Of a stretch of DNA of 35,178 nt, positions 15,867 to 32,184 are shown one piece after another. The position numbers and the translations under genes were made by a program. Below the pieces are notes generated by a model. It was not told the origin of the DNA, searched no databases, and worked only from the letters and a program-made list of their open reading frames with translations. This DNA comes from Candidatus Omnitrophota bacterium (lineage in GTDB: Bacteria > Omnitrophota > Gorgyraeia > B26-G9): contig JACQZH010000006.1 in the NCBI GenBank assembly GCA_016213925.1, positions 1 to 35,178 of the forward strand. Reading direction: 5' to 3'. The first letter of the stretch is position 1. Each line of letters opens with the position of its first letter.

Positions 15867-17186
15867 CTAAACACGAATGAACAAAAAATATCTTAACCAG
15901 ATATATACGCAACTAATGAGCACTGACTGCATCATCAAGGGAAGCCCATATTTTAAGAAACTTAAAAAAGTTATCGGATATTTATTGCGTTCGCCGATTT
16001 TTGCCATAACCAGGTTCGCTGATGCTCCGATCAATGTCCCGTTTCCTCCAAGACAGGCGCCTAAAGCAAGCGACCACCATAGCGGCGCGGTAATTTGCGC
16101 GTTCAACTGCGCCTGCCCCAATCCGGAATAATACGAAGAAAGTTTTTCTATCACTTCCTTGATCATCGGAATCATTGTGATAACAAACGGAATATTATCC
16201 AGTAAAGAAGATAGCACCGCGCTGCCGGCCAGAATCATCATGCATAATAACAATACATTCGTACCGCCAACCTTGATTATCCACTGCGCTATCAACGAAA
16301 TCACGCCGGTATATTCCAAACCGGCAACAATCATAAATAACCCGATAAAGAAAAACACCAGCCCCCATTCCACGCGCATCAAAGTCATATCTACCTCTGA
16401 ACGGCATACGGCAACCATGATCATGCTTCCGCAAAGAGCGATAATTCCCGGCTCAAGGCCGGTGATAGTGTGGGTAAAAAAGCCGGCCAATATCGCTCCT
16501 AATACCCAGAGAGCGTAACGCATTCTTTTTTTATCAATAATCGCCAGATCAGGCAGAGCCTGCGTTATCCTAGACTTTATCTCCTTTGGAACATGCCACT
16601 TCTTCCGAAACAGCATATATACCGTTGCTAAAAATACCAGGAACACTATTGTTATTACCGGAGTTAAGTTAAAAAGAAAATCATTAAAAGATAATCCAGC
16701 CTGTAAGCCGATTAGAATATTCGGCGGGTCTCCGATCAATGTTGCCGTTCCGCCGATATTTGACGCGATAGCTTCAAGGATTAAAAAAGGCGTCGGAGAT
16801 ATTTCCAGTATTTCCATAACCAAAATAGTTATCGGAGCAATCAGAATAATCGTTGTCACATTATCAAGGAACGCTGAAAGCACAACTGTCACGCTTAAAA
16901 ACAAGATCAGGATCATCATCGGATTTCCTCTCGCCAGTTTCGCGACACTGATCGCGACCCATTCAAAAAATCCGGTCTTTGATAAAACATGCACACAGGT
17001 CATCATCCCGACAAGAAGAAATATCACGTTTAAATCCACTGCCCTAACCGCTGTTTCAAAAGGAACCAGCCGCAGCAAAAGCATTATCGATGCCCCGACT
17101 ACAACGATAATCGTTTTCTCGATTTTTTCCATAACAATAAACGCGTAAACAATAACAAAAATTAAACTTGCCAATATCCCTTGCAT
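15867..17186 (-). CDS. ArsB/NhaD-superfamily (SLC13-type) ion transporter
   Basis: SAFLDNVTTIILIAPIT, ASNIGGTATLIGDPPNILIG, second half SLLDNIPFVITMIPMI and CLGGNGTLIGASANLVM. Confidence 0.9.
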   Translation of the reverse strand: MQGILASLIFVIVYAFIVMEKIEKTIIVVVGASIMLLLRLVPFETAVRAVDLNVIFLLVGMMTCVHVLSKTGFFEWVAISVAKLARGNPMMILILFLSVTVVLSAFLDNVTTIILIAPITILVMEILEISPTPFLILEAIASNIGGTATLIGDPPNILIGLQAGLSFNDFLFNLTPVITIVFLVFLATVYMLFRKKWHVPKEIKSRITQALPDLAIIDKKRMRYALWVLGAILAGFFTHTITGLEPGIIALCGSMIMVAVCRSEVDMTLMRVEWGLVFFFIGLFMIVAGLEYTGVISLIAQWIIKVGGTNVLLLCMMILAGSAVLSSLLDNIPFVITMIPMIKEVIEKLSSYYSGLGQAQLNAQITAPLWWSLALGACLGGNGTLIGASANLVMAKIGERNKYPITFLSFLKYGLPLMMQSVLISCVYIWLRYFLFIRV

Positions 17187-17204
17187 ATTATAAGTATCCT
17201 TCTT

Positions 17205-18125
17205 TTAAAAAAATAATATTTTATCTATAATGCTAAACCTGTCAATTTCCCCGACAAGCTTGCCGTCATCAACAACAAAAAGCTTCGACTGATTTTTTAC
17301 CGCCAGCTCAAACACTATTTCCAGTAAAGTCGCGTCCTTGGAGATTACCGTAGTATCCTTAACAACAATATCCCTGGCTTTAAGTTCTTTTTTTATCTTA
17401 AAATATTTTTCAAACGGGTCAATATGCCTGACAAAAGATACTGTGTTCAGATGTTTAAAAAACTCCGGAATCCCATGGAGAAAAATTTCTGAACACGCAA
17501 TTTGCCCGCAAATCCTGCCCTCGCTATCTATTACCGGAACAATGTCTAAATGGCTCAAATGCATAATACGCGTTACATCCTCAACCGAGGAGTCCATTTT
17601 AACAGAGGCTTTTACCGGCCTCATTATATCGCCGGCGCGGATTGTCTTAGTCGCGTTAAGGTTATGTTCTTTAAATTTTTCGCTGATCTGGCCCGCGCTC
17701 ATACCGTTAAATAATGTGTCAATATACTTTGTTTCATTTAAGAAACGGATAATCGCTGACATCGTCTGAAGAATAATATACGGTTCTTCTGTCGAAGAAA
17801 TCATCAAGCATATAAAATTTACCGGTAAACCGTCAAGGCTGTTAAAATCGATATTTTTTTTGTTTATCCCGATAACAACAACAAATTTCTCCCAGCCTTT
17901 AATCCGGGCATGCGGAAATGCCACTCTTTGCCCAAGCCCTGTTGTCTGCATTTTCTCCCTGGCCATAACTTCTTCCAAAGCTTTTTCAAAAGAAATTTTT
18001 CCCGCGAAAACATCCTTTTTCTTAAAAACCTTCTCCACAAGAACGCGGATAGCACCCTCTTTATTCGCCGCGTCAAGATTGGCTGCGATCAGTTCCGGCA
18101 TTACATACTGGCTAATATCAATCAT
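17205..18125 (-). CDS. PTS EIIA (Ntr/fructose-type) domain fused to CBS pair
   Basis: TTGLGQRVAFPHARI; AGDIMRPVKASVKMDSSVEDVTRIM and ARDIVVKDTTVISKDATLLEIV. Confidence 0.88.
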   Translation of the reverse strand: MIDISQYVMPELIAANLDAANKEGAIRVLVEKVFKKKDVFAGKISFEKALEEVMAREKMQTTGLGQRVAFPHARIKGWEKFVVVIGINKKNIDFNSLDGLPVNFICLMISSTEEPYIILQTMSAIIRFLNETKYIDTLFNGMSAGQISEKFKEHNLNATKTIRAGDIMRPVKASVKMDSSVEDVTRIMHLSHLDIVPVIDSEGRICGQIACSEIFLHGIPEFFKHLNTVSFVRHIDPFEKYFKIKKELKARDIVVKDTTVISKDATLLEIVFELAVKNQSKLFVVDDGKLVGEIDRFSIIDKILFF

Positions 18126-18268
18126 TGTTTATTTCCCCTCTTCAGTAATATACTTTCAAAAAAAGCACTGCTTGATATTTTACAGCAGCGCTATTAATTT
18201 ACATGCATTTTTACGCTTTATAATAAATAGTATTTTACCGCTTACATTCTGATTAAATAAAAAATTTT

Positions 18269-19066
18269 TTAGCATTTCGCGCTGCCCATCAACTTTAATA
18301 ACCCATCAAGAATAGTTAATGGGTGCGGCGGGCACCCGGGGATATAAAGATCAACCGGAATAAGCGAATCTACTCCGTCATTGGTTTGCTCATGCCCGAT
18401 ATACGGCCCGCCAGATATTGCGCATGCCCCGACAGCAATAACAAGTTTAGGCGACGGTACTGCTTTATATGTTTTTTCAAGCGCTAACCGCATATTTTTT
18501 GTAACCGGGCCGGTTACTACGATTCCATCCGCATGGCGGGGCGAAGCAACAAACTGAATACCAAACCGGCCAAGGTCAAAACCAACTGTATTCAAAACAT
18601 TTATATCAAGTTCGCAGGCATTGCATCCGCCGGCGCTCACCTGACGTAATTTCAATGACCGTCCAAAGATATGTTTTATTCTTTTTTTAACCTCTCTGCT
18701 ATTTTGTTCCGGTTTATTTGAAATTATCAGGCCTTTTCTTTCTTTTACCGCCAAGCGATATTCTCGTGTAAAAGTTATTGCCTTATCTGCACAGATTCTT
18801 TGGCATTCTCCGCAAAAAAGGCATCGTCCCAGGTCAAGCAAAAGGCCATCTCCTTCTATGCCGACCGCTCCCGTAGGACAAATAATTTTGCACTTCTGGC
18901 AATCCTCTTTAGAAATATTAGGCCGCACACAAGGCCTGCCTAAAAACCTTTCCGGCAAAGATTCATTTTTTACAGGCAAAGGCATCGTCCTATAGCCTTG
19001 TTTTAATCTCGCAAATAATGTTTTGATCATATCAATCCTAATTTTCCTTAAAGATCGTGGCCGCAA
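18269..19066 (-). CDS. Fused 2[4Fe-4S] ferredoxin and NuoB/HyfI-type small subunit of hydrogenase-like complex
   Basis: CQKCKIICP and CLFCGECQRIC; SAGGCNACELD, GACAISGG, GCPPHP. Confidence 0.9.
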   Translation of the reverse strand: MRPRSLRKIRIDMIKTLFARLKQGYRTMPLPVKNESLPERFLGRPCVRPNISKEDCQKCKIICPTGAVGIEGDGLLLDLGRCLFCGECQRICADKAITFTREYRLAVKERKGLIISNKPEQNSREVKKRIKHIFGRSLKLRQVSAGGCNACELDINVLNTVGFDLGRFGIQFVASPRHADGIVVTGPVTKNMRLALEKTYKAVPSPKLVIAVGACAISGGPYIGHEQTNDGVDSLIPVDLYIPGCPPHPLTILDGLLKLMGSAKC

Positions 19067-20434
19067 TATGATAGATTAAAACTTTTATTGCACAGAGGAA
19101 AATTTGATATTTCCTCCCCTCGAAGTGCCATTGCCAACCCAGCCCAATTATGAAATGACGGGTCAACAATTTTATATTGCGCTATATTCCCATTTTTGTC
19201 GGTCAAAACAGCATGACAGATCTCTCCGCGCCAGCCTTCAACCAATGAGACCGCTATATTTTCCCGTTTTATTGCGCTAACTGGCGCTATAATCTCGCCT
19301 TCAGGTAAATTATTCAACTGGTCCAGTATAAATTCAACTGACTTTTGTATCTCAAGCCACCGCACAAAAGCACGGCTAAAAACATCTCCAGAAGAATACG
19401 TTGATAAAGGTATCTGGGAAAATTGAAAAATGCCTGCAGGGAAATCAAAACGAACATCACGTTCGATCCCGCAGGCTCGCGCGCTAACTCCAACTAACCC
19501 GAGATCTAAAGCTGTCTGTTTTGTTAAAAAACCAGTTTCATCAAACCTATCCACTACCAAGGAAGAATCCCATAATAGAGATACTGCGCTTCTAACATCC
19601 TCAATTGCCTTCACTAAACACTTCTTTAATTCTGCGGCCATTTTATCATTCAGATCAAACAATACGCCTCCTGGCCTTATCATATTACGGCCAAATCTAT
19701 TGCCGCAAATTAACGCTGTCAAGTTAAGAAAATCGCCTCTTAATCTTCCGCAATATGACGCTGTAGGCAAATATCCAATGTCATTAGCTAAAGCCCCCAA
19801 ATCGCCGGTATGATTAGCCAACCTTTCTAATTCAAGCATAATAGCCCTAAGAGCGAAAGCTCTTAACGAAACCTCACAATCCGACAAACTTTCTATTGCT
19901 TGAGCATATGCCAGCGAATATCCAACCGTTGTATCTCCTGCCGCAGTTTCCACATAATGGATGTACGGGCCCAACAGCCACTTCATGAATCTCATCTCCA
20001 TTAACCTGCAAAAAATTTGTGACTGATGGTATAATTTCCTGCTTTTCAAAATTATTCGAACTTTTTTTATAAAGCTCATGAAACCTAATTGGTTTAAGCC
20101 ACGGGTGCCCATCAGGATATATTCCCCACTGCTCAAAGATTTCCCGTTCAAACCAATGAACTTGCGGAATCTGAACTGTCAACGAAGGATATGAATCTTT
20201 AACAGAAGTAGAAAAAATTTCCAGCCACCCGTCTTTATCATACGCGCGAACCATCATAAGATTAACTGACCCGTTTTCATTCGGATACCCCCAGAAAGAA
20301 ACTACCCTCGCGCCTTTATTTGCTCCTTCGATAACACAATCGCGAAATTCGCCAAACGGCAAAAGAGGAATATCCCCTAAAGGCTTCTCCTGAGAATTAC
20401 GTACTCTTAAAAGACGCTGTGCCATTAAAACCAT
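19048..20434 (-). pseudogene. HyfG-type large subunit (NuoC-like + NuoD/HycE-like), disrupted by internal deletion with frame change
   Basis: ORF 19874-20434 ends properly at GDEIHEVAVGPVH; ORF 19048-20151 becomes recognisable only at HYVETAAGDTTVGYSLAY...ELERLANHTGDLGALANDIGYLPTASYCGRLRGDFLNLTALICGNRFGR; expected middle segment absent. Confidence 0.75.
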
Positions 20435-21894
20435 CCCAATCCTTTAGCCGCTGCTTCTAAAGCGCGGGTTAACCAAACGGGGAAAAACACGCCAATCCCA
20501 ATAGCTAAAACAAAAAAAACTACTGGAGTAAGTGTTCTCCAAAAAGCATTTGCCTGGCGCAAATCACTCTTACTCTTCTTTTCGGCTGAAACGCCCTGCA
20601 CCATTGAAATAAATATCCGCGTCATTCCGATAAAAACAACCGCTAAAGTAATTAAAAAACAAACAGTGACCCCATAGCGCCCTTGTAATAACGCTTCCTT
20701 CAGAATGATAAATTTACCAAAAAAAATAACGGATGGCGGCATTCCTGTTATTAACAAGAAGCCAACCATCCAAAGCACTCCGGACCGGCACATTTCCCCT
20801 GCGGCAATCCCCTGGATATCCGATATTTTTTTTGTCTTAAAATAAGAAAAAATATTCCCGGCAACGAAAAATAACCCCGCTTTGGTTAACGAATGCCCTA
20901 ACATGTTTGCCATTGCGCCAAAAACAGCGCCCCCTCCCAAACCAATGCCTAGAGTTATTATCCCCATATGTTCTATACTTGAATACGCCAGCATTCTTTT
21001 GTAATCCGTTTGCCCTAAAATAAACACCGCCGCAAACAGAATAGATAAAAGCCCAAAAACAATAAATATCTCCTGGCAATATGACTGAAGCCCGGCCGCG
21101 ATACAGATTTGATAGCCGCGTAAAATTCCTAAAAAAGCGCAATTAAGCAATGCCCCTGAAAGAAGCGCCGAAACAACAGACGGCGCTTCACTATGAGCGT
21201 CAGGCAGCCATGTATGAAAAGGAGCAAGCCCCATCTTTGTGCCGTATCCGACAAATAAGAGCAGGAATGCCGCTTTTAACCATGGTATATTTATCTGCCA
21301 GGCATTTTCTATCACTTTAGCTAAAAGCATCTCTGATTGATTATTATTCGCAACAGCCAGAAAAAAGATCCCCAGCAAAGCTACCGCAATTCCCACAGAA
21401 CAGATTAGAAGGTATTTCCATGTCGCTTCCAGAGAACGTTTGGTACGATGAAAATATATTAAAGGCGCGCTTGCCAAGGTTGTTGCCTCAACGCCAACCC
21501 ATAAAAGAGCTAAATGCTGACTGGCAATAACTGTTGTCATCGTCGAAAGAAATAATAAAAAACATCCGCTGAAAACCGCTTCATTAGAAAAAATCTTATG
21601 CTTTTTATTCTCATCTTTAAAATGCCCGCTTTCATTAGATAAATACTGGACACCATAAAGTGACGCCCCCAAAAACAGGACACTAGTAATAATCAAAAAT
21701 ACAAAACTCACATCATCAAAAACAAACCATCCGCCCAAAAGCCCGAAGTCCTGTTTGCCCCATGCAAAACAAGTTAGAGCCAGATGCGCCCCGGAACAGG
21801 CAACGATTACGCCCCTGCGCATAAAATCATCCCGGATAAAAAATGAAACTACTCCAAAAAAAAGCGGGATCGTGATTAATAATACAGTAACCAT
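20425..21894 (-). CDS. HyfF/NuoN-like antiporter-type membrane subunit
   Basis: GYGTKMGLAPFHTWLPDAHSEAPSVVSALLSG, RMLAYSSIEHMGII. Confidence 0.92.
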   Translation of the reverse strand: MVTVLLITIPLFFGVVSFFIRDDFMRRGVIVACSGAHLALTCFAWGKQDFGLLGGWFVFDDVSFVFLIITSVLFLGASLYGVQYLSNESGHFKDENKKHKIFSNEAVFSGCFLLFLSTMTTVIASQHLALLWVGVEATTLASAPLIYFHRTKRSLEATWKYLLICSVGIAVALLGIFFLAVANNNQSEMLLAKVIENAWQINIPWLKAAFLLLFVGYGTKMGLAPFHTWLPDAHSEAPSVVSALLSGALLNCAFLGILRGYQICIAAGLQSYCQEIFIVFGLLSILFAAVFILGQTDYKRMLAYSSIEHMGIITLGIGLGGGAVFGAMANMLGHSLTKAGLFFVAGNIFSYFKTKKISDIQGIAAGEMCRSGVLWMVGFLLITGMPPSVIFFGKFIILKEALLQGRYGVTVCFLITLAVVFIGMTRIFISMVQGVSAEKKSKSDLRQANAFWRTLTPVVFFVLAIGIGVFFPVWLTRALEAAAKGLGWF

Positions 21895-21904
21895 CTTATA
21901 ATTC

Positions 21905-22564
21905 CTATTTTTTGGTTATTAAATCTTTAAGTTCCGATAATTTATGCGTATCAATATGGTCAAATTCCCGGCTAATATGGAATATCGCGATTCCCATGAC
22001 AAACACCGCCACAAAAATATCCAGCAAAATAGCTAATTCAACCAAGAAAGATTGCGCCCCTAAAAAAACCGCGCCAAAAAGAAAAATGCCGTTTTCTAAC
22101 ACCAGATATCCGATTACTTGAGTTATTGCTTTCATCCGGCTGACTATTATCAACGCGCCGGTAAAAAAAGTCGCGAAAGACACTGGCGCGGCCAAATACG
22201 AAATAAGCGGCTGCGCATACTCTAACCGGCTGGTTAGCCAAAAAGACAGCGCGAACATAAGCACGCCCATCAACAATGAAAGCGGATATCCTCCTAAAGG
22301 TTCGACTTCTTTTCTAATATTCGCTTCCCGCAAAGCCCGGAACAATAATCCTGGAAATATCATGCCTTTCAAAATAATACTGAAAAAAGAAATAATAATA
22401 ATTCCCGGCAGAATCGAATGAATATCAATTATCACCGGCATGAATCCTACCAGAATTCCCTGGACAGCAGCTATTTGTATGCATGTTCTAATCCGGCTTG
22501 ACGAAAGCATCATCAAATTCATAAGCAATACCGTAACAATAACAAAATCAATAGGCATTTCCAT
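21905..22564 (-). CDS. HyfE-like (NuoK-containing) membrane subunit
   Basis: Position in operon, multi-TM, GYLVLENGIFLFG. Confidence 0.85.
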   Translation of the reverse strand: MEMPIDFVIVTVLLMNLMMLSSSRIRTCIQIAAVQGILVGFMPVIIDIHSILPGIIIISFFSIILKGMIFPGLLFRALREANIRKEVEPLGGYPLSLLMGVLMFALSFWLTSRLEYAQPLISYLAAPVSFATFFTGALIIVSRMKAITQVIGYLVLENGIFLFGAVFLGAQSFLVELAILLDIFVAVFVMGIAIFHISREFDHIDTHKLSELKDLITKK

Positions 22565-22568
22565 TTTT

Positions 22569-23492
22569 TTACCTCATTGTAAGTATCAAAGCAACCACAG
22601 ATAACGCCAACGCTATAATTAAAAAATGCGGAACTTTTAATAAACGCAGCCGCGCGAGAACCGATTCCACAATCCCGACAATAACCGCAAGAAAAATCAT
22701 TCCAAAGATAAAAATTGCGACATCAATTCCCCATCCGCGAGAACATGCTCCCAAAAACATACTTACCAGTAATGTCCCCAAAAGCCAAAATTTCACTGCG
22801 GCTCCATAAAGAATATATGCAAAATCAACTCCTCCATGATCCAAAACCATAACCTCATGAATCATGGTTAGTTCCAAATGAGTATTAGGATCATCCACCG
22901 GGATGCGGGAATTTTCAGATAAAAAAACAATAAAAATTGCACCAAAAACCAAATAAATTCCTGGGCCGAAAGCTGCCCAGGAATTTATAACCGCGCTGGA
23001 AAATATCCCCGAAAGAGAAATGCTTCCTGTTAAACGCGCTAAAGCCGCCAAACTTAAAAATAATGACGGCTCGGCAAAAGCAGCAAATTGGACCTCCCTG
23101 CTGGCCCCCATGCCTTCAAAACTCGAACCAGTATCAAGAGCCGCCATGACAGTAAAAAAACGCGCAAGCCCCAACAAATAAATAAATAATACTATATCGC
23201 CATCAAATGAGATTAACGATGGATATCCGGTAAAAGGAATCAATGCCGAAGCAATTACAACTGCACTCAAACTAACTATCGGCCCGGCAACAAAAATCCA
23301 TGTTGTTGTTTTGCTGTATACAGCTCCTTTTCTAAGCAATTTAAAAATATCATAGTACAACTGTAATAAAGGGCTCCCTTTCCGTCCGGCAAAAAAAGCT
23401 TTCGTGCGGTTAATCACTCCGAACAAAAACGGAGAAAGGATTAGAATTAAAATAAACTGTACTATCTTCGTATGCATTTTTATAATTTCCAA
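22569..23492 (-). CDS. HyfC/NuoH-like membrane subunit
   Basis: RKGSPLLQLYYDIFKLLRKGAVYS, SRIPVDDPNTHLELTMIHEVMVLDH. Confidence 0.93.
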   Translation of the reverse strand: MEIIKMHTKIVQFILILILSPFLFGVINRTKAFFAGRKGSPLLQLYYDIFKLLRKGAVYSKTTTWIFVAGPIVSLSAVVIASALIPFTGYPSLISFDGDIVLFIYLLGLARFFTVMAALDTGSSFEGMGASREVQFAAFAEPSLFLSLAALARLTGSISLSGIFSSAVINSWAAFGPGIYLVFGAIFIVFLSENSRIPVDDPNTHLELTMIHEVMVLDHGGVDFAYILYGAAVKFWLLGTLLVSMFLGACSRGWGIDVAIFIFGMIFLAVIVGIVESVLARLRLLKVPHFLIIALALSVVALILTMR

Positions 23493-25186
23493 ATAAAAAG
23501 CGCGATCAGAGTAAATAAAATATACAAAATATACAAATGTAACTGCCCATGCTGAACCCCTGTTAATCTTTCCGCTAATCGATGAATAAATTTAAGCGCG
23601 GGACGAAAAACCGTTTCACTAAATAAATCTGCTGTTTCAGTTTTAAAAAACGAAACATCAGGGAAATATTCAGAAATTTTAGGCCCATGTTTTTGAGTTC
23701 TTAGAATACCTCTAAAAAAATCCGCAATAGGCTGCACATATGAAGATGCGGTATACTGCATGCGCGCTTCGGGTTTTGCATACCCGCAATCCCAGGTAAG
23801 AACACGTTCTACGCGCCTGCCTTTAAGCAGCATTTGACGCAGCGCAGCTATCAATAAAATTAAGACTGTGGCTAAACATCCAATCAAAGCTAAAGACGCG
23901 ATAATTCCCAAACAAACAAAAACCGTTATCCCTGATCCAAATATACCCTTTAAAGAAGCAAAATAAATCAAAAACTCGCTTATAAATCCGTTTAGCACTG
24001 GTAGTCCGCAAATCGCGGCAGCGCCAACAAGAAAACAAAACCCGGTTACAGGCATTTTTTTAAGCAGCCCCCCTAAAAGATCTATTTTCCTAGTACCGGT
24101 TTCATGTAAAATAACTCCTGCCCCAAGAAAAAGCAACCCTTTAAAAAATGCGTGATTAATAACATGCAGCAATCCTCCGGCAAATCCCAGAACGATTAAG
24201 GTGGGATTATTCATGCTCATCCCCAAAACGCCTAATCCTATTCCCATTGAAATAATGCCGATATTTTCAATACTTGAATATGCCAAAAGCCGTTTTAAAT
24301 CCTGCTGGGCCAATGCAAATAAAATCCCGAAAATTCCTGAAACAATTCCTATAAAAATCAGCAGCCATCCCCACCATACGCAAGGCGTACCCAAAAAATT
24401 TATAACTCTAAGTAAACCATAAATTCCGGTTTTTATCATTACCCCTGACATAACCGCCGAAACATGGCTCGGTGCTGCCGGATGCGCCTCCGGAAGCCAA
24501 ATATGCATCGGCATAAATCCGGCTTTTGTCCCAAACCCGATTAACGCGCAAAGAAAAATTATTGAATGCAGAAAACCCGGAGCAGTTATTTGGCTCCCGG
24601 GGAAATCAAACGAACCGCTATCTTTGCTCAATAAAATAAACATTGCCAGCAAAAAAAGTGTTCCGATTTGGGCAGCAATCAAATAGATCAACCCGGCTTG
24701 AGCAGCCTCTTTCTTTTCTCCTTCAAACAATACCAGAAAAAATGAACTCATTGACATCATTTCCCAGGCCAATAAAAAAAGAATCGCATTACGGCTAATC
24801 ACCACAAGCACCATGCTGGCAATAAGCAGATTAAAAAAGAACCACGCGCTTCCTATATTCTTCTTTCCATAATAATGCCGCAAATATTCCGCTCCATATA
24901 AAGCAGCCAACGCGGACAGAATAAAGATCGGGAATAAAAACAACGCCCCCAAACTATCTATCGCCACAGATAAAGAACCATCGGGGACAAACCAAGGAAT
25001 GCTTAATTCAGCACAGCCAGGACTATTATAAACGATAAAAAGAGAGCTTAATCCCAATACGCATGCGCAGACAGCGCCTATTGCGCCAATATAATTTGCT
25101 AACTTGACAAACCGGTTTAAGCTAAGCGCAAGCAATCCGCTCATTATAAATATGGTTAATGAACAAAATACTATATTCATATGCAA
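23480..25186 (-). CDS. HyfB/NuoL-like antiporter-type membrane subunit
   Basis: GFGTKAGFMPMHIWLPEAHPAAPSHVSAVMSG, RLLAYSSIENIGII, C-terminal WDCGY. Confidence 0.93.
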   Translation of the reverse strand: MHMNIVFCSLTIFIMSGLLALSLNRFVKLANYIGAIGAVCACVLGLSSLFIVYNSPGCAELSIPWFVPDGSLSVAIDSLGALFLFPIFILSALAALYGAEYLRHYYGKKNIGSAWFFFNLLIASMVLVVISRNAILFLLAWEMMSMSSFFLVLFEGEKKEAAQAGLIYLIAAQIGTLFLLAMFILLSKDSGSFDFPGSQITAPGFLHSIIFLCALIGFGTKAGFMPMHIWLPEAHPAAPSHVSAVMSGVMIKTGIYGLLRVINFLGTPCVWWGWLLIFIGIVSGIFGILFALAQQDLKRLLAYSSIENIGIISMGIGLGVLGMSMNNPTLIVLGFAGGLLHVINHAFFKGLLFLGAGVILHETGTRKIDLLGGLLKKMPVTGFCFLVGAAAICGLPVLNGFISEFLIYFASLKGIFGSGITVFVCLGIIASLALIGCLATVLILLIAALRQMLLKGRRVERVLTWDCGYAKPEARMQYTASSYVQPIADFFRGILRTQKHGPKISEYFPDVSFFKTETADLFSETVFRPALKFIHRLAERLTGVQHGQLHLYILYILFTLIALFIWKL

Positions 25187-25214
25187 ATTTTTCTTTCATT
25201 ACAAAAACGTTGGC

Positions 25215-25904
25215 CTATTGACCCAATAATTGTTCCGCTTTTTCAATTTCGCACACTATAATTTCCCGGGATTTTTGCTTTACAAGCGCATCTTTCACAC
25301 CATCATCTTTCAAAACAAAAGCTATTATTGAAAGCATTTTTAAATGGCTTCTGACAGTTGGGCTGATTAAAGTAACCAGGCAATTAACCGGCTTACCGTC
25401 TATCGCGCCGAAATCAACAGGCTTTTCAGAAAAACAAATTGATACTATTACATGCGGGATATGGGTAACGATAGGATACCGCGCATGCGGAATTGCGATT
25501 CCATCCCCAAACCCTGTAGATCCAAGTTCTTCTCTAAGAAGCATCGCGCTTAGAAGGCCTTCTCTGCTAACCTCGCCGGGTAAATCCAAGGAATAAACAA
25601 CCGAACTAAGCAAAGCTTTCTTATCATTACCTTTAACATTATAGTAAATTCCGCCTTTCCTGATTGTTTGTGTCAATGAATTACCCGTAATGTGATTTCC
25701 AGTAACATCACTAAACATTTCCTTTGAAATGCTTATTTTTTGAGCTGTTGCCCAGTCTAATATTTCCACCCTGTTAAACCGGTATTGCTCGTGAATCCGA
25801 TAAACAGGAATCTTCCGTTTTTTTATCCAGCGATAAATAGTTTTCTCTGTGACATTCAACAATTTAGATAAATCTTTTACGCTTAACTGCATTCGCTCCT
25901 CCAA
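25215..25904 (-). CDS. Excisionase/MerR-like HTH fused to PTS EIIA domain
   Basis: LSVKDLSKLLNVTEKTIYRWIKKRKIPVYRIHEQYRFNRVEILDWA; GFGDGIAIPHARYP. Confidence 0.9.
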   Translation of the reverse strand: MEERMQLSVKDLSKLLNVTEKTIYRWIKKRKIPVYRIHEQYRFNRVEILDWATAQKISISKEMFSDVTGNHITGNSLTQTIRKGGIYYNVKGNDKKALLSSVVYSLDLPGEVSREGLLSAMLLREELGSTGFGDGIAIPHARYPIVTHIPHVIVSICFSEKPVDFGAIDGKPVNCLVTLISPTVRSHLKMLSIIAFVLKDDGVKDALVKQKSREIIVCEIEKAEQLLGQ

Positions 25905-30919: not shown

Positions 30920-31378
30920 CTAGTGTTCAAACCTCTGAAAAGCCCTAATGATTTCTTCCGGGCCGGAGGCATTCATTAATAACTCCCTAAAATCATCACT
31001 GCTTAAAATCCGCGTCAACCGAGCGAGAATTTTTAAATAACTGTTTACGCCCTTATTTACCGGTGTTCCCAGTAAAAAAATCAATCTTGCCGGAGCATTA
31101 TCAACGGAATTAAATTCTACTCCTTGCGCCGCGCGGCCAAATACAAAAACAAAATCATTAACAGCATCCGTACGCGCATGCGGGATAGCAACGCTGTTGC
31201 CCATTCCTGTCGTATTAAGATTTTCTCTTTCGAAAACATTTTTAACAAACAAATCATAATCCACAACTTCTTGCGCATTTTTAAGAAAAGCCGCAAGTTC
31301 GCTTATCGCTTCTTCTTTGTTGCGGGCTTTTAAATTAAGGCTTATTCTTTCTGCTTTCAATAAATCAACAATCTTCAT
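30920..31378 (-). CDS. Stand-alone PTS EIIA (Ntr-type) domain protein
   Basis: TTGMGNSVAIPHARTD. Confidence 0.92.
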   Translation of the reverse strand: MKIVDLLKAERISLNLKARNKEEAISELAAFLKNAQEVVDYDLFVKNVFERENLNTTGMGNSVAIPHARTDAVNDFVFVFGRAAQGVEFNSVDNAPARLIFLLGTPVNKGVNSYLKILARLTRILSSDDFRELLMNASGPEEIIRAFQRFEH

Positions 31379-31399
31379 TTCTCAATCCCCTTTTACCTT

Positions 31400-32098
31400 T
31401 CAATCAGAAAACATCCTTTTATGGTCAACTTCCAGCAATATCTGCATGATCTTCTCCCGATCTTGAGCGCGCAGCAACTTTTCCGTAATATTCTCCACAT
31501 GCATAAGTTTGGCAATCTTAGCAAGCAACCGCAGGTGCACAAATTCATTAGGCGCGCAAATCATAAAAAAGACAAAAACATCTTTAGCGTCAGGAGCGCC
31601 AAAATCAATGCCCTTTTCCAGGCGCGCGAAAACAACATTCGGCTTTTGGAAAATCTCTGCAGAAGGATTTCTCGGATGAGGAACAGCCACCCCTTTGCCT
31701 ATGGCAGTACTCATCATCTGCTCTCTATTGCGTAATTCCTTCAAAAGCAATTGCTCATTTAATGTTAATTTATTTTCCCTAGCAATTTTTGCAAGTATTT
31801 TTAAAACATCATCTCCATTTTTTGCCTTTAAATTCAATTTTATGTTCTCAAGGCTCACCAGCCTCGATAAGGGAATAATCGTTGTTTCCGTTTGTATAAG
31901 CAAATCCAGGTCTTCATCAGCTGACTTGACTATCTGCCCTTGAATATAATTATCAATAGCCGCTAGGTGAAACCGCCATTGATTCCCGATCTTTACACCA
32001 GGCAGTTTCCCAGTCTGAGCCATTTTAATAACAGTTTTCTCATTAAGCTTAATATATTCTGCCAGTTCTTTTGTGGTCATGATATCATTTTTCGCCAT
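31400..32098 (-). CDS. Excisionase-like HTH fused to PTS EIIA domain
   Basis: MTTKELAEYIKLNEKTVIKMAQTGKLPGVKIGNQWRFHLAAIDNYI; STAIGKGVAVPHPRNP. Confidence 0.9.
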   Translation of the reverse strand: MAKNDIMTTKELAEYIKLNEKTVIKMAQTGKLPGVKIGNQWRFHLAAIDNYIQGQIVKSADEDLDLLIQTETTIIPLSRLVSLENIKLNLKAKNGDDVLKILAKIARENKLTLNEQLLLKELRNREQMMSTAIGKGVAVPHPRNPSAEIFQKPNVVFARLEKGIDFGAPDAKDVFVFFMICAPNEFVHLRLLAKIAKLMHVENITEKLLRAQDREKIMQILLEVDHKRMFSD

Positions 32099-32155: not shown

Positions 32156-32184
32156 AGTATACCTTAAACAGGCTAAAATGTCAA
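32156..32184 (-). promoter_or_regulatory. Near-consensus sigma70 promoter for HTH-EIIA gene
   Basis: TTGACA - 17 nt - TATACT on minus strand. Confidence 0.85.

Follow-up and report, generated by a model that had tools for sequence, protein, structure and literature searches.

What does a hydrogenase-like membrane complex do when it has no nickel site, and when does the cell call for it? The question is raised by a 35,178-base stretch (the window) on contig C49 of an Omnitrophota draft genome (2.27 Mb, 81 contigs; G000, with G, L, and C denoting the genomes, loci, and contigs of our analysis). Here the genes for HTH-EIIA (a helix-turn-helix domain joined to an EIIA domain of the phosphotransferase system, PTS), HyfB, HyfC, HyfE, HyfF, a large subunit, a small subunit, a second regulator (EIIA-CBS), and a transporter-like protein follow one another in that order, all on the minus strand. 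The operon encodes an energy-converting hydrogenase-related (Ehr) complex, with a HyfB/C/E/F membrane arm, a NuoC/D-like large subunit, and a small subunit with a fused ferredoxin-like domain, the latter two being homologous to those of group 4 [NiFe] hydrogenases and complex I. On balance, and with modest confidence, we favor the view that the first seven genes form a self-contained unit in which a PTS-responsive transcription factor, HTH-EIIA, governs a nickel-free Ehr complex, i.e. a ferredoxin-linked ion pump under PTS control.

Ehr complexes are related to group 4 hydrogenases, lack the nickel ligands, and are of unknown function (PMC6349859, PMC10284858, PMC7894505); they have been reported in Geobacter sulfurreducens, Margulisbacteria, and comammox Nitrospira (PMC7894505, PMC6349859, PMC10284858). 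Ehr itself is already known; the link to HTH-EIIA is stronger than could be told from the window by the model that first read it without database searches (the original prediction). The gene order and subunit identities of that reading were borne out on the minus strand throughout by Pfam and NCBIfam profile matches, from which the following assignments were made.

25215–25904, minus strand: HTH-EIIA regulator, an N-terminal excisionase/MerR-like helix-turn-helix (HTH_17, PF12728) with a PTS EIIA-2 domain (PF00359)
23480–25186, minus strand: HyfB-type antiporter-like subunit (NuoL/M/N family), 91 residues short compared with relatives (NCBIfam HyfB, E = 6e-160)
22569–23492, minus strand: HyfC/NuoH-type membrane subunit (PF00146, E = 7.5e-37)
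21905–22564, minus strand: HyfE-type membrane subunit (NCBIfam hydrogenase 4 membrane subunit, E = 1e-20, under the curated cut-off)
20425–21894, minus strand: HyfF-type antiporter-like subunit with pump residues E/K/K (Pfam/NCBIfam and alignment)
19048–20434, minus strand: large subunit, whole
18269–19066, minus strand: small subunit (HyfI/NuoB-like) with an N-terminal two-cluster HycF-like ferredoxin domain (PF01058, E = 7e-29)

A regulator conserved at the head of the operon

HTH-EIIA lies immediately upstream of HyfB and on the same strand at 51 of the 60 loci that have a HyfB match and upstream sequence. Because seven of the nine misses are contigs starting inside the operon, the linkage holds at 51 of 53 testable loci, the two genuine misses being L071 and L090, and the synteny suggested by the original prediction is upheld. 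The linked loci span about ten phyla, including Planctomycetota, Verrucomicrobiota, Lentisphaerota, Omnitrophota, Elusimicrobiota, Acidobacteriota, Myxococcota, and Thermodesulfobacteriota. At L101, a Rhodopirellula metagenome-assembled genome (MAG), the Ehr operon is split into divergent halves and HTH-EIIA precedes the large-subunit gene; HTH-EIIA is also upstream of that gene at L074, a planctomycete contig starting at the large subunit. Among 58 Omnitrophota genomes, only those carrying this Ehr have a full-length HTH-EIIA orthologue, and one of them (G002; L125, G002:C100) carries two tandem Ehr copies, each with its own HTH-EIIA. Distances between HTH-EIIA proteins correlate with those between large subunits (Mantel r 0.38; 0 of 2000 permutations as high). 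The phospho-acceptor His motif, GIAIPHARYP in the window, is kept in nearly all homologues scanned.

When the flanking genes of 80 loci were clustered, no recurrent neighbor emerged beyond the seven-gene unit. The HTH-EIIA linkage being kept and no other neighbor being conserved, the conserved unit is thus HTH-EIIA plus HyfB-C-E-F-G-I, and a dedicated dehydrogenase is therefore not part of it. A formate dehydrogenase partner, as proposed for Margulisbacteria, is found neither in the window nor as a conserved neighbor. The original prediction had named a nearby flavodoxin and FAD oxidase as speculative partners; the protein it called a flavodoxin belongs to the NADPH-dependent FMN reductase type (PF03358), and neither gene is conserved beside the operons of relatives, so that both remain unsupported as redox partners. 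At three annotated plasmid homologues (Variovorax, Rhodococcus, and Allomeiothermus; 38–42% identity), no EIIA gene is nearby. Our literature search, which did not extend to subscription papers and supplements, returned no report linking EIIA to Ehr.

Two smaller observations concern the same loci. The large subunits of the tandem Ehr copies at L125 are 80% and 54% identical to that of the window, and the start of L074 carries tandem 15-base repeats (TTTTGTCATCTCCAC) just 5' of HTH-EIIA.

A large subunit without nickel ligands

To locate the nickel sites, the large subunit was aligned with E. coli HyfG, HycE, and NuoCD. Where hydrogenases have C-G-I-C at the first site, the window has A-G-D-T (within ETAAGDTTVG), and relatives mostly have A/S-G-D-T/S. 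The counterpart of the second site (DPCYSC) is FNLSYCGHDL at the very C terminus, where there is no CxxC and where the large subunit terminates without a C-terminal processing tail. In some 90 close homologues, a nickel-binding CxxC is likewise missing from both sites. The original prediction was therefore right that the nickel site is missing, and it placed the first site correctly; its second site, DPSFHNW, was wrong, since this motif pairs with E. coli AATYANW, upstream of the true position. The comparison enzymes keep their cysteines (CGIC/DPCYSC in E. coli HyfG and HycE; CGIC/DPCYCC in Omnitrophota group 4 hydrogenases). The four nickel-ligating cysteines and processing tail that mark a group 4 [NiFe] hydrogenase are not found here, and a classical hydrogenase identity was rejected because CxxC is missing at both sites. 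The E. coli K-12 HyfG used (L113:10488-12155) is about 15 residues shorter than HycE at the same place.

A maximum-likelihood tree, calculated without published Ehr reference sequences, recovers the Ehr clade of the window (support 100/98) as sister to a second nickel-less clade (99/97). Both lie across a 100/100 branch from formate hydrogenlyase (FHL), NiFe group 4, and Nuo, a point at which long branches are flagged as meeting. A full-length member of the clade (L034) is 34–41% identical to the annotated nickel-less plasmid homologues, and the nearest solved large-subunit structure is Thermus Nqo4. His and Cys residues conserved throughout the clade in the NuoD-like part are those at position 11, C245-H246, H267, C287, C296, and H298.

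The family shares with other Ehr complexes the group 4-like subunit set, the absence of nickel-binding CxxC motifs, and the antiporter-like subunits, but differs from them in the HTH-EIIA gene heading the operon and in the ferredoxin-like domain fused to the small subunit. With E. coli FHL and hydrogenase-4 (Hyc, Hyf) it has in common the HyfB-C-E-F-G-I order, the small subunit, and the HycF-like domain, whereas it lacks the nickel cysteines, the processing tail, HyfA, HyfD, and HyfJ, and the link to formate dehydrogenase.

Redox chain and ion-pumping subunits

In the small subunit, the proximal-cluster ligands C148, C151, C215, and C245 (in GCNAC, GAC, and GCPP), which the original prediction had recognized as intact, are conserved in 76–77 of 78 homologues. 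Its fused N-terminal domain has eight conserved cysteines, enough for two clusters, and resembles HycF of FHL; the best solved matches of the small subunit are MbhJ and FHL HycG, with the N terminus matching HycF. This domain is absent from the small subunits of nickel-less relatives outside the clade, i.e. those of Variovorax and Omnitrophota L129 (clade B). HyfB and HyfF retain the antiporter-family Glu/Lys/(Glu or Lys) residues of the E144/K229/(K or E)399 type, as E/K/E in HyfB and E/K/K in HyfF, so that the NuoL/M/N-like subunits expected of an Ehr complex are present with their conserved Glu/Lys, the HyfB of the window carrying its 91-residue gap.

Complex I (the NuoB, C, D, H, I, and L/M/N core) shares these fold families and pump residues. 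Unlike complex I, the Ehr operon has no NADH module (NuoEFG), either within it or as a conserved neighbor, its small subunit carries hydrogenase-type CxxC ligands to the proximal cluster, and its large subunit has no Tyr at the NuoCD DRIEY position.

A regulatory PTS and a candidate operator

The source genome encodes EI, HPr, and six EIIA domains, and HTH-EIIA combines an EIIA-2 domain with the conserved His, as expected of a PTS EIIA regulator. No PF02378 EIIC was found in the genome, other EIIC families not having been tested; with EI, HPr, and EIIA domains present and this EIIC family missing, the PTS looks regulatory. The arrangement recalls PTS-Ntr (PtsN/EIIA-Ntr) in its EIIA-2 with phospho-acceptor His and its EI and HPr without PF02378 EIIC, but differs in that the EIIA is fused to a helix-turn-helix and tied to an ion-pumping redox complex. 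In the same genome, an EIIA domain is fused to a Na+/H+ exchanger (L124:1656-3887, G000:C29).

Many relatives have a sigma-70-like promoter 5' of HTH-EIIA (TTGACA, followed some 17 bases later by a −10-like hexamer). Typically 28–30 bases past TTGAC stands a direct repeat, TGTCY-N4..7-TGTCY, nearly always with N5 (TGTCC-N5-TGTCC), which is present in 17 of 56 regions upstream of HTH-EIIA. It occurs in 0.26% of background windows, and shuffled regions average 0.15 (maximum 2). The pattern was picked after viewing the sequences, and the computed binomial value is therefore optimistic, although the effect is still large. Loci with the repeat belong to Planctomycetota, Verrucomicrobiota, Acidobacteriota, and Smithella. 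Aligning the upstream DNA of the Omnitrophota loci gave no useful information. The window lacks the repeat, and its operon may be transcribed from further upstream, the best consensus promoter being at 32184-32156.

A proposed working and what weighs against it

From the features that can be read in sequence, namely the subunits, the cluster ligands, the missing nickel ligands, the pump residues, the HTH-EIIA linkage, the promoter repeat of relatives, and EI/HPr, we infer a working in which the donor and acceptor, the direction, the ion, and the binding of HTH-EIIA to the repeat would be as follows. Phosphate would pass from phosphoenolpyruvate (PEP) through EI and HPr to the EIIA histidine and so set the phosphorylation state of HTH-EIIA. 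This regulator would bind the direct repeat in the promoter of its own gene, turning operon expression on or off as the PEP/pyruvate (carbon/energy) state changes. Electrons from reduced ferredoxin would enter at the fused ferredoxin-like domain, cross its two clusters, reach the proximal cluster of the small subunit, and go on to an acceptor at the pocket that houses [NiFe] in hydrogenases, the energy moving H+ or Na+ via HyfB, HyfF, and HyfC; the complex might also run in reverse, yielding reduced ferredoxin. A fuller version strikes us as doubtful. In it, the pocket that once held [NiFe] would have become a novel active site without nickel, marked by the clade-wide His and Cys residues listed above and serving the redox chemistry of some substrate; the complex would be a redox-driven ion pump; and a PTS EIIA transcription factor would exert direct control over the operon by way of a conserved direct-repeat operator in some ten phyla.

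The original prediction of a phospho-regulated, ion-translocating redox module survives in part. Neither of the two findings that it named as refuting turned up: the nickel cysteines are missing from every close homologue, and the EIIA linkage is strongly conserved. The pump residues are kept as well; the EIIA-CBS/transporter pair reads as mobile, the second nickel site was misplaced, two deletions had escaped notice, and phospho-regulation and ion pumping are deduced from sequence.

Several points weigh against a ferredoxin-linked, PTS-controlled unit. Two deletions that look disabling affect the window copy, whose promoter region has no repeat above chance; the HTH-EIIA gene there overlaps the end of an upstream PMT/glycosyltransferase-39-like gene. 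Across relatives the repeat is confined to the 17 loci given above, and its tie to HTH-EIIA is one of position. The fused domain is the single feature pointing to ferredoxin as donor, and in the window Ser replaces one of its eight cluster cysteines (position 52). Our sampling for the linkage is skewed toward homologues of at least ∼60% identity.

A regulator conserved across phyla, several of which also have a candidate operator, indicates when the cell may want Ehr (PEP/pyruvate or carbon state) and gives a direct experimental handle on Ehr in cultivable species. It also hints at a broader theme in these bacteria, in which ion transport by Ehr, a Na+/H+ exchanger, and an ArsB-like transporter is under the control of a PTS that lacks the customary sugar permease.

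Two deletions in the window copy

The original prediction overlooked a 134-base deletion in the large subunit and a 273-base deletion in HyfB.

19963–20434, minus strand: large subunit, NuoC-like N-terminal part as far as the deletion (PF00329, E = 7e-8)
19962–19963, minus strand: junction left in the large subunit by the frameshifting loss of 134 bases (DNA alignment)
19048–19962, minus strand: large subunit, NuoD-like part (PF00346, E = 8e-38)
23856–23881, minus strand: junction (about 23865/23866) left in HyfB by the in-frame loss of 273 bases

DNA alignment with relatives shows that 134 bases are absent at 19962/19963; because of this, the NuoC-like part, in the frame of open reading frame (ORF) 19874-20434 and ending in EIHEVAVGPVHPLCGN, and the NuoD-like part, in the frame of ORF 19048-20151 and reading HYVETAAGDTTVGYSL, are in different frames. 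Intact relatives (about 76–83% identity) have one ORF of about 500–550 codons running through GPVHAGIIEPGHFRF, LGYQHRGIEK, and IHYMETAAGDTT, and the segment lost from the window spans EPGHFRF and YQHRGIE. In HyfB, the 273 bases absent in frame correspond to 91 residues present in aligned relatives and in E. coli HyfB, leaving 568 residues compared with 657–659 in relatives and 672 in E. coli. Outside the gaps, deviations at near-invariant positions (those that 95% or more of relatives share) number 0/71 in HyfB, 0/70 in HyfC, 0/68 in HyfF, 1/117 in the NuoD-like part, and 0/78 in the small subunit. With essentially all conserved positions kept, the deletions are therefore recent or assembly errors. 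An old pseudogene was rejected, there being no relaxed constraint outside the deletions.

That the deletions are artefacts of metagenome assembly or strain collapse, the operon being intact in the organism, has in our judgment nearly an even chance. The rest of the operon shows no relaxed constraint and the genome is a draft in 81 contigs; on the other hand, these are two clean internal deletions in a single operon, none was noticed in the other window genes looked at, and no duplicate copy that might confuse an assembler was found. If the assembly is right, the copy in the source genome is probably non-functional. We hold more tentatively, as a possibility somewhat short of even, that it is a recently inactivated operon, a pseudogene of a family functional elsewhere, damaged in both HyfB and the large subunit and deprived of its dedicated promoter. 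The frameshift that strips the EPGHFRF and YQHRGIE segments, the HyfB deletion, the failure to find in the window a promoter/operator like that of relatives, and the failure to find a second operon copy in the genome all argue for this reading; the nearly complete conservation outside the gaps would require the decay to be very recent, and a MAG assembly error would look identical.

Other readings of the regulator and the electron partner

EIIA proteins elsewhere bind ion transporters (PMC11808508); in E. coli, unphosphorylated PtsN inhibits the K+/H+ antiporter YcgO (PMC11808508), which serves as a precedent for EIIA control of ion transport. HTH-EIIA might accordingly act mainly by contacting the complex, or the EIIA proteins by acting on transporters, rather than HTH-EIIA being a transcription factor. 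The exchanger-fused EIIA and the EIIA-CBS gene beside the ArsB-like transporter in the same genome fit such a role, but the conserved HTH-EIIA has a DNA-binding domain and its promoter a conserved repeat, and we consider it unlikely.

That the complex is a complex I-like quinone reductase feeding menaquinone or ubiquinone is improbable: the closest solved large subunit is Thermus Nqo4 and the fold family and membrane arm are held in common, but the Tyr of E. coli NuoCD DRIEYLGG, which we take to be the quinone Tyr, is Gly in this Ehr family, and the menaquinone markers MqnA/MqnD and MenD are absent from the genome (ubiquinone genes were not tested), which together make menaquinone an unlikely partner.

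The neighboring EIIA-CBS regulator and transporter

Keeping HTH-EIIA and HyfB-C-E-F-G-I as the conserved unit, the remaining features of the window are the following.

17205–18125, minus strand: EIIA-CBS regulator, phospho-acceptor His present, GQRVAFPHARIK (PF00359 and PF00571)
15867–17186, minus strand: membrane protein of the ArsB/CitMHS ion-transporter superfamily (PF03600, E = 2e-81)
30920–31378, minus strand: free-standing EIIA protein within the same minus-strand gene run (PF00359)
31400–32098, minus strand: second HTH-EIIA regulator, a different orthologue, adjoining EIIA-CBS/transporter in relatives
32156–32184, minus strand: best promoter-like site of the region (TTGACA-17-TATACT), 5' of the second HTH-EIIA (consensus match only)

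The transporter is assigned at superfamily level only, every specific NCBIfam model scoring far under its cut-off. Six Omnitrophota genomes have a close EIIA-CBS homologue (in one of them as two pieces), and in every one it adjoins the transporter gene; at three of these six pairs the second HTH-EIIA is close by and the contig has no Ehr. The pair stands beside Ehr at four loci: the window, L037, L039, and L129, the last with a different Ehr clade. We read EIIA-CBS and the transporter as a separate, putatively mobile transporter module under PTS control that has become attached to Ehr operons in some cases; the original prediction was right that they lie directly downstream of Ehr in the window, but as an independently mobile pair they are not a fixed part of the complex. 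Since the second HTH-EIIA adjoins EIIA-CBS and the transporter in relatives, the Ehr operon of the window appears to lie within such a cluster.

Among the individual loci, the second HTH-EIIA orthologue adjoins EIIA-CBS and the transporter in G010, G011, and G047, and in the window it and the free EIIA (30920-32098) head the same minus-strand gene run as Ehr. At L129 (G028:C7, 1795-11141), an Ehr operon belonging to the second nickel-less clade has EIIA-CBS and an ArsB-like transporter immediately upstream and no HTH-EIIA. L037 and L039 have in common, past the transporter, two small ORFs that by eye resemble a CrcB/FluC fluoride channel and a DUF190 protein.

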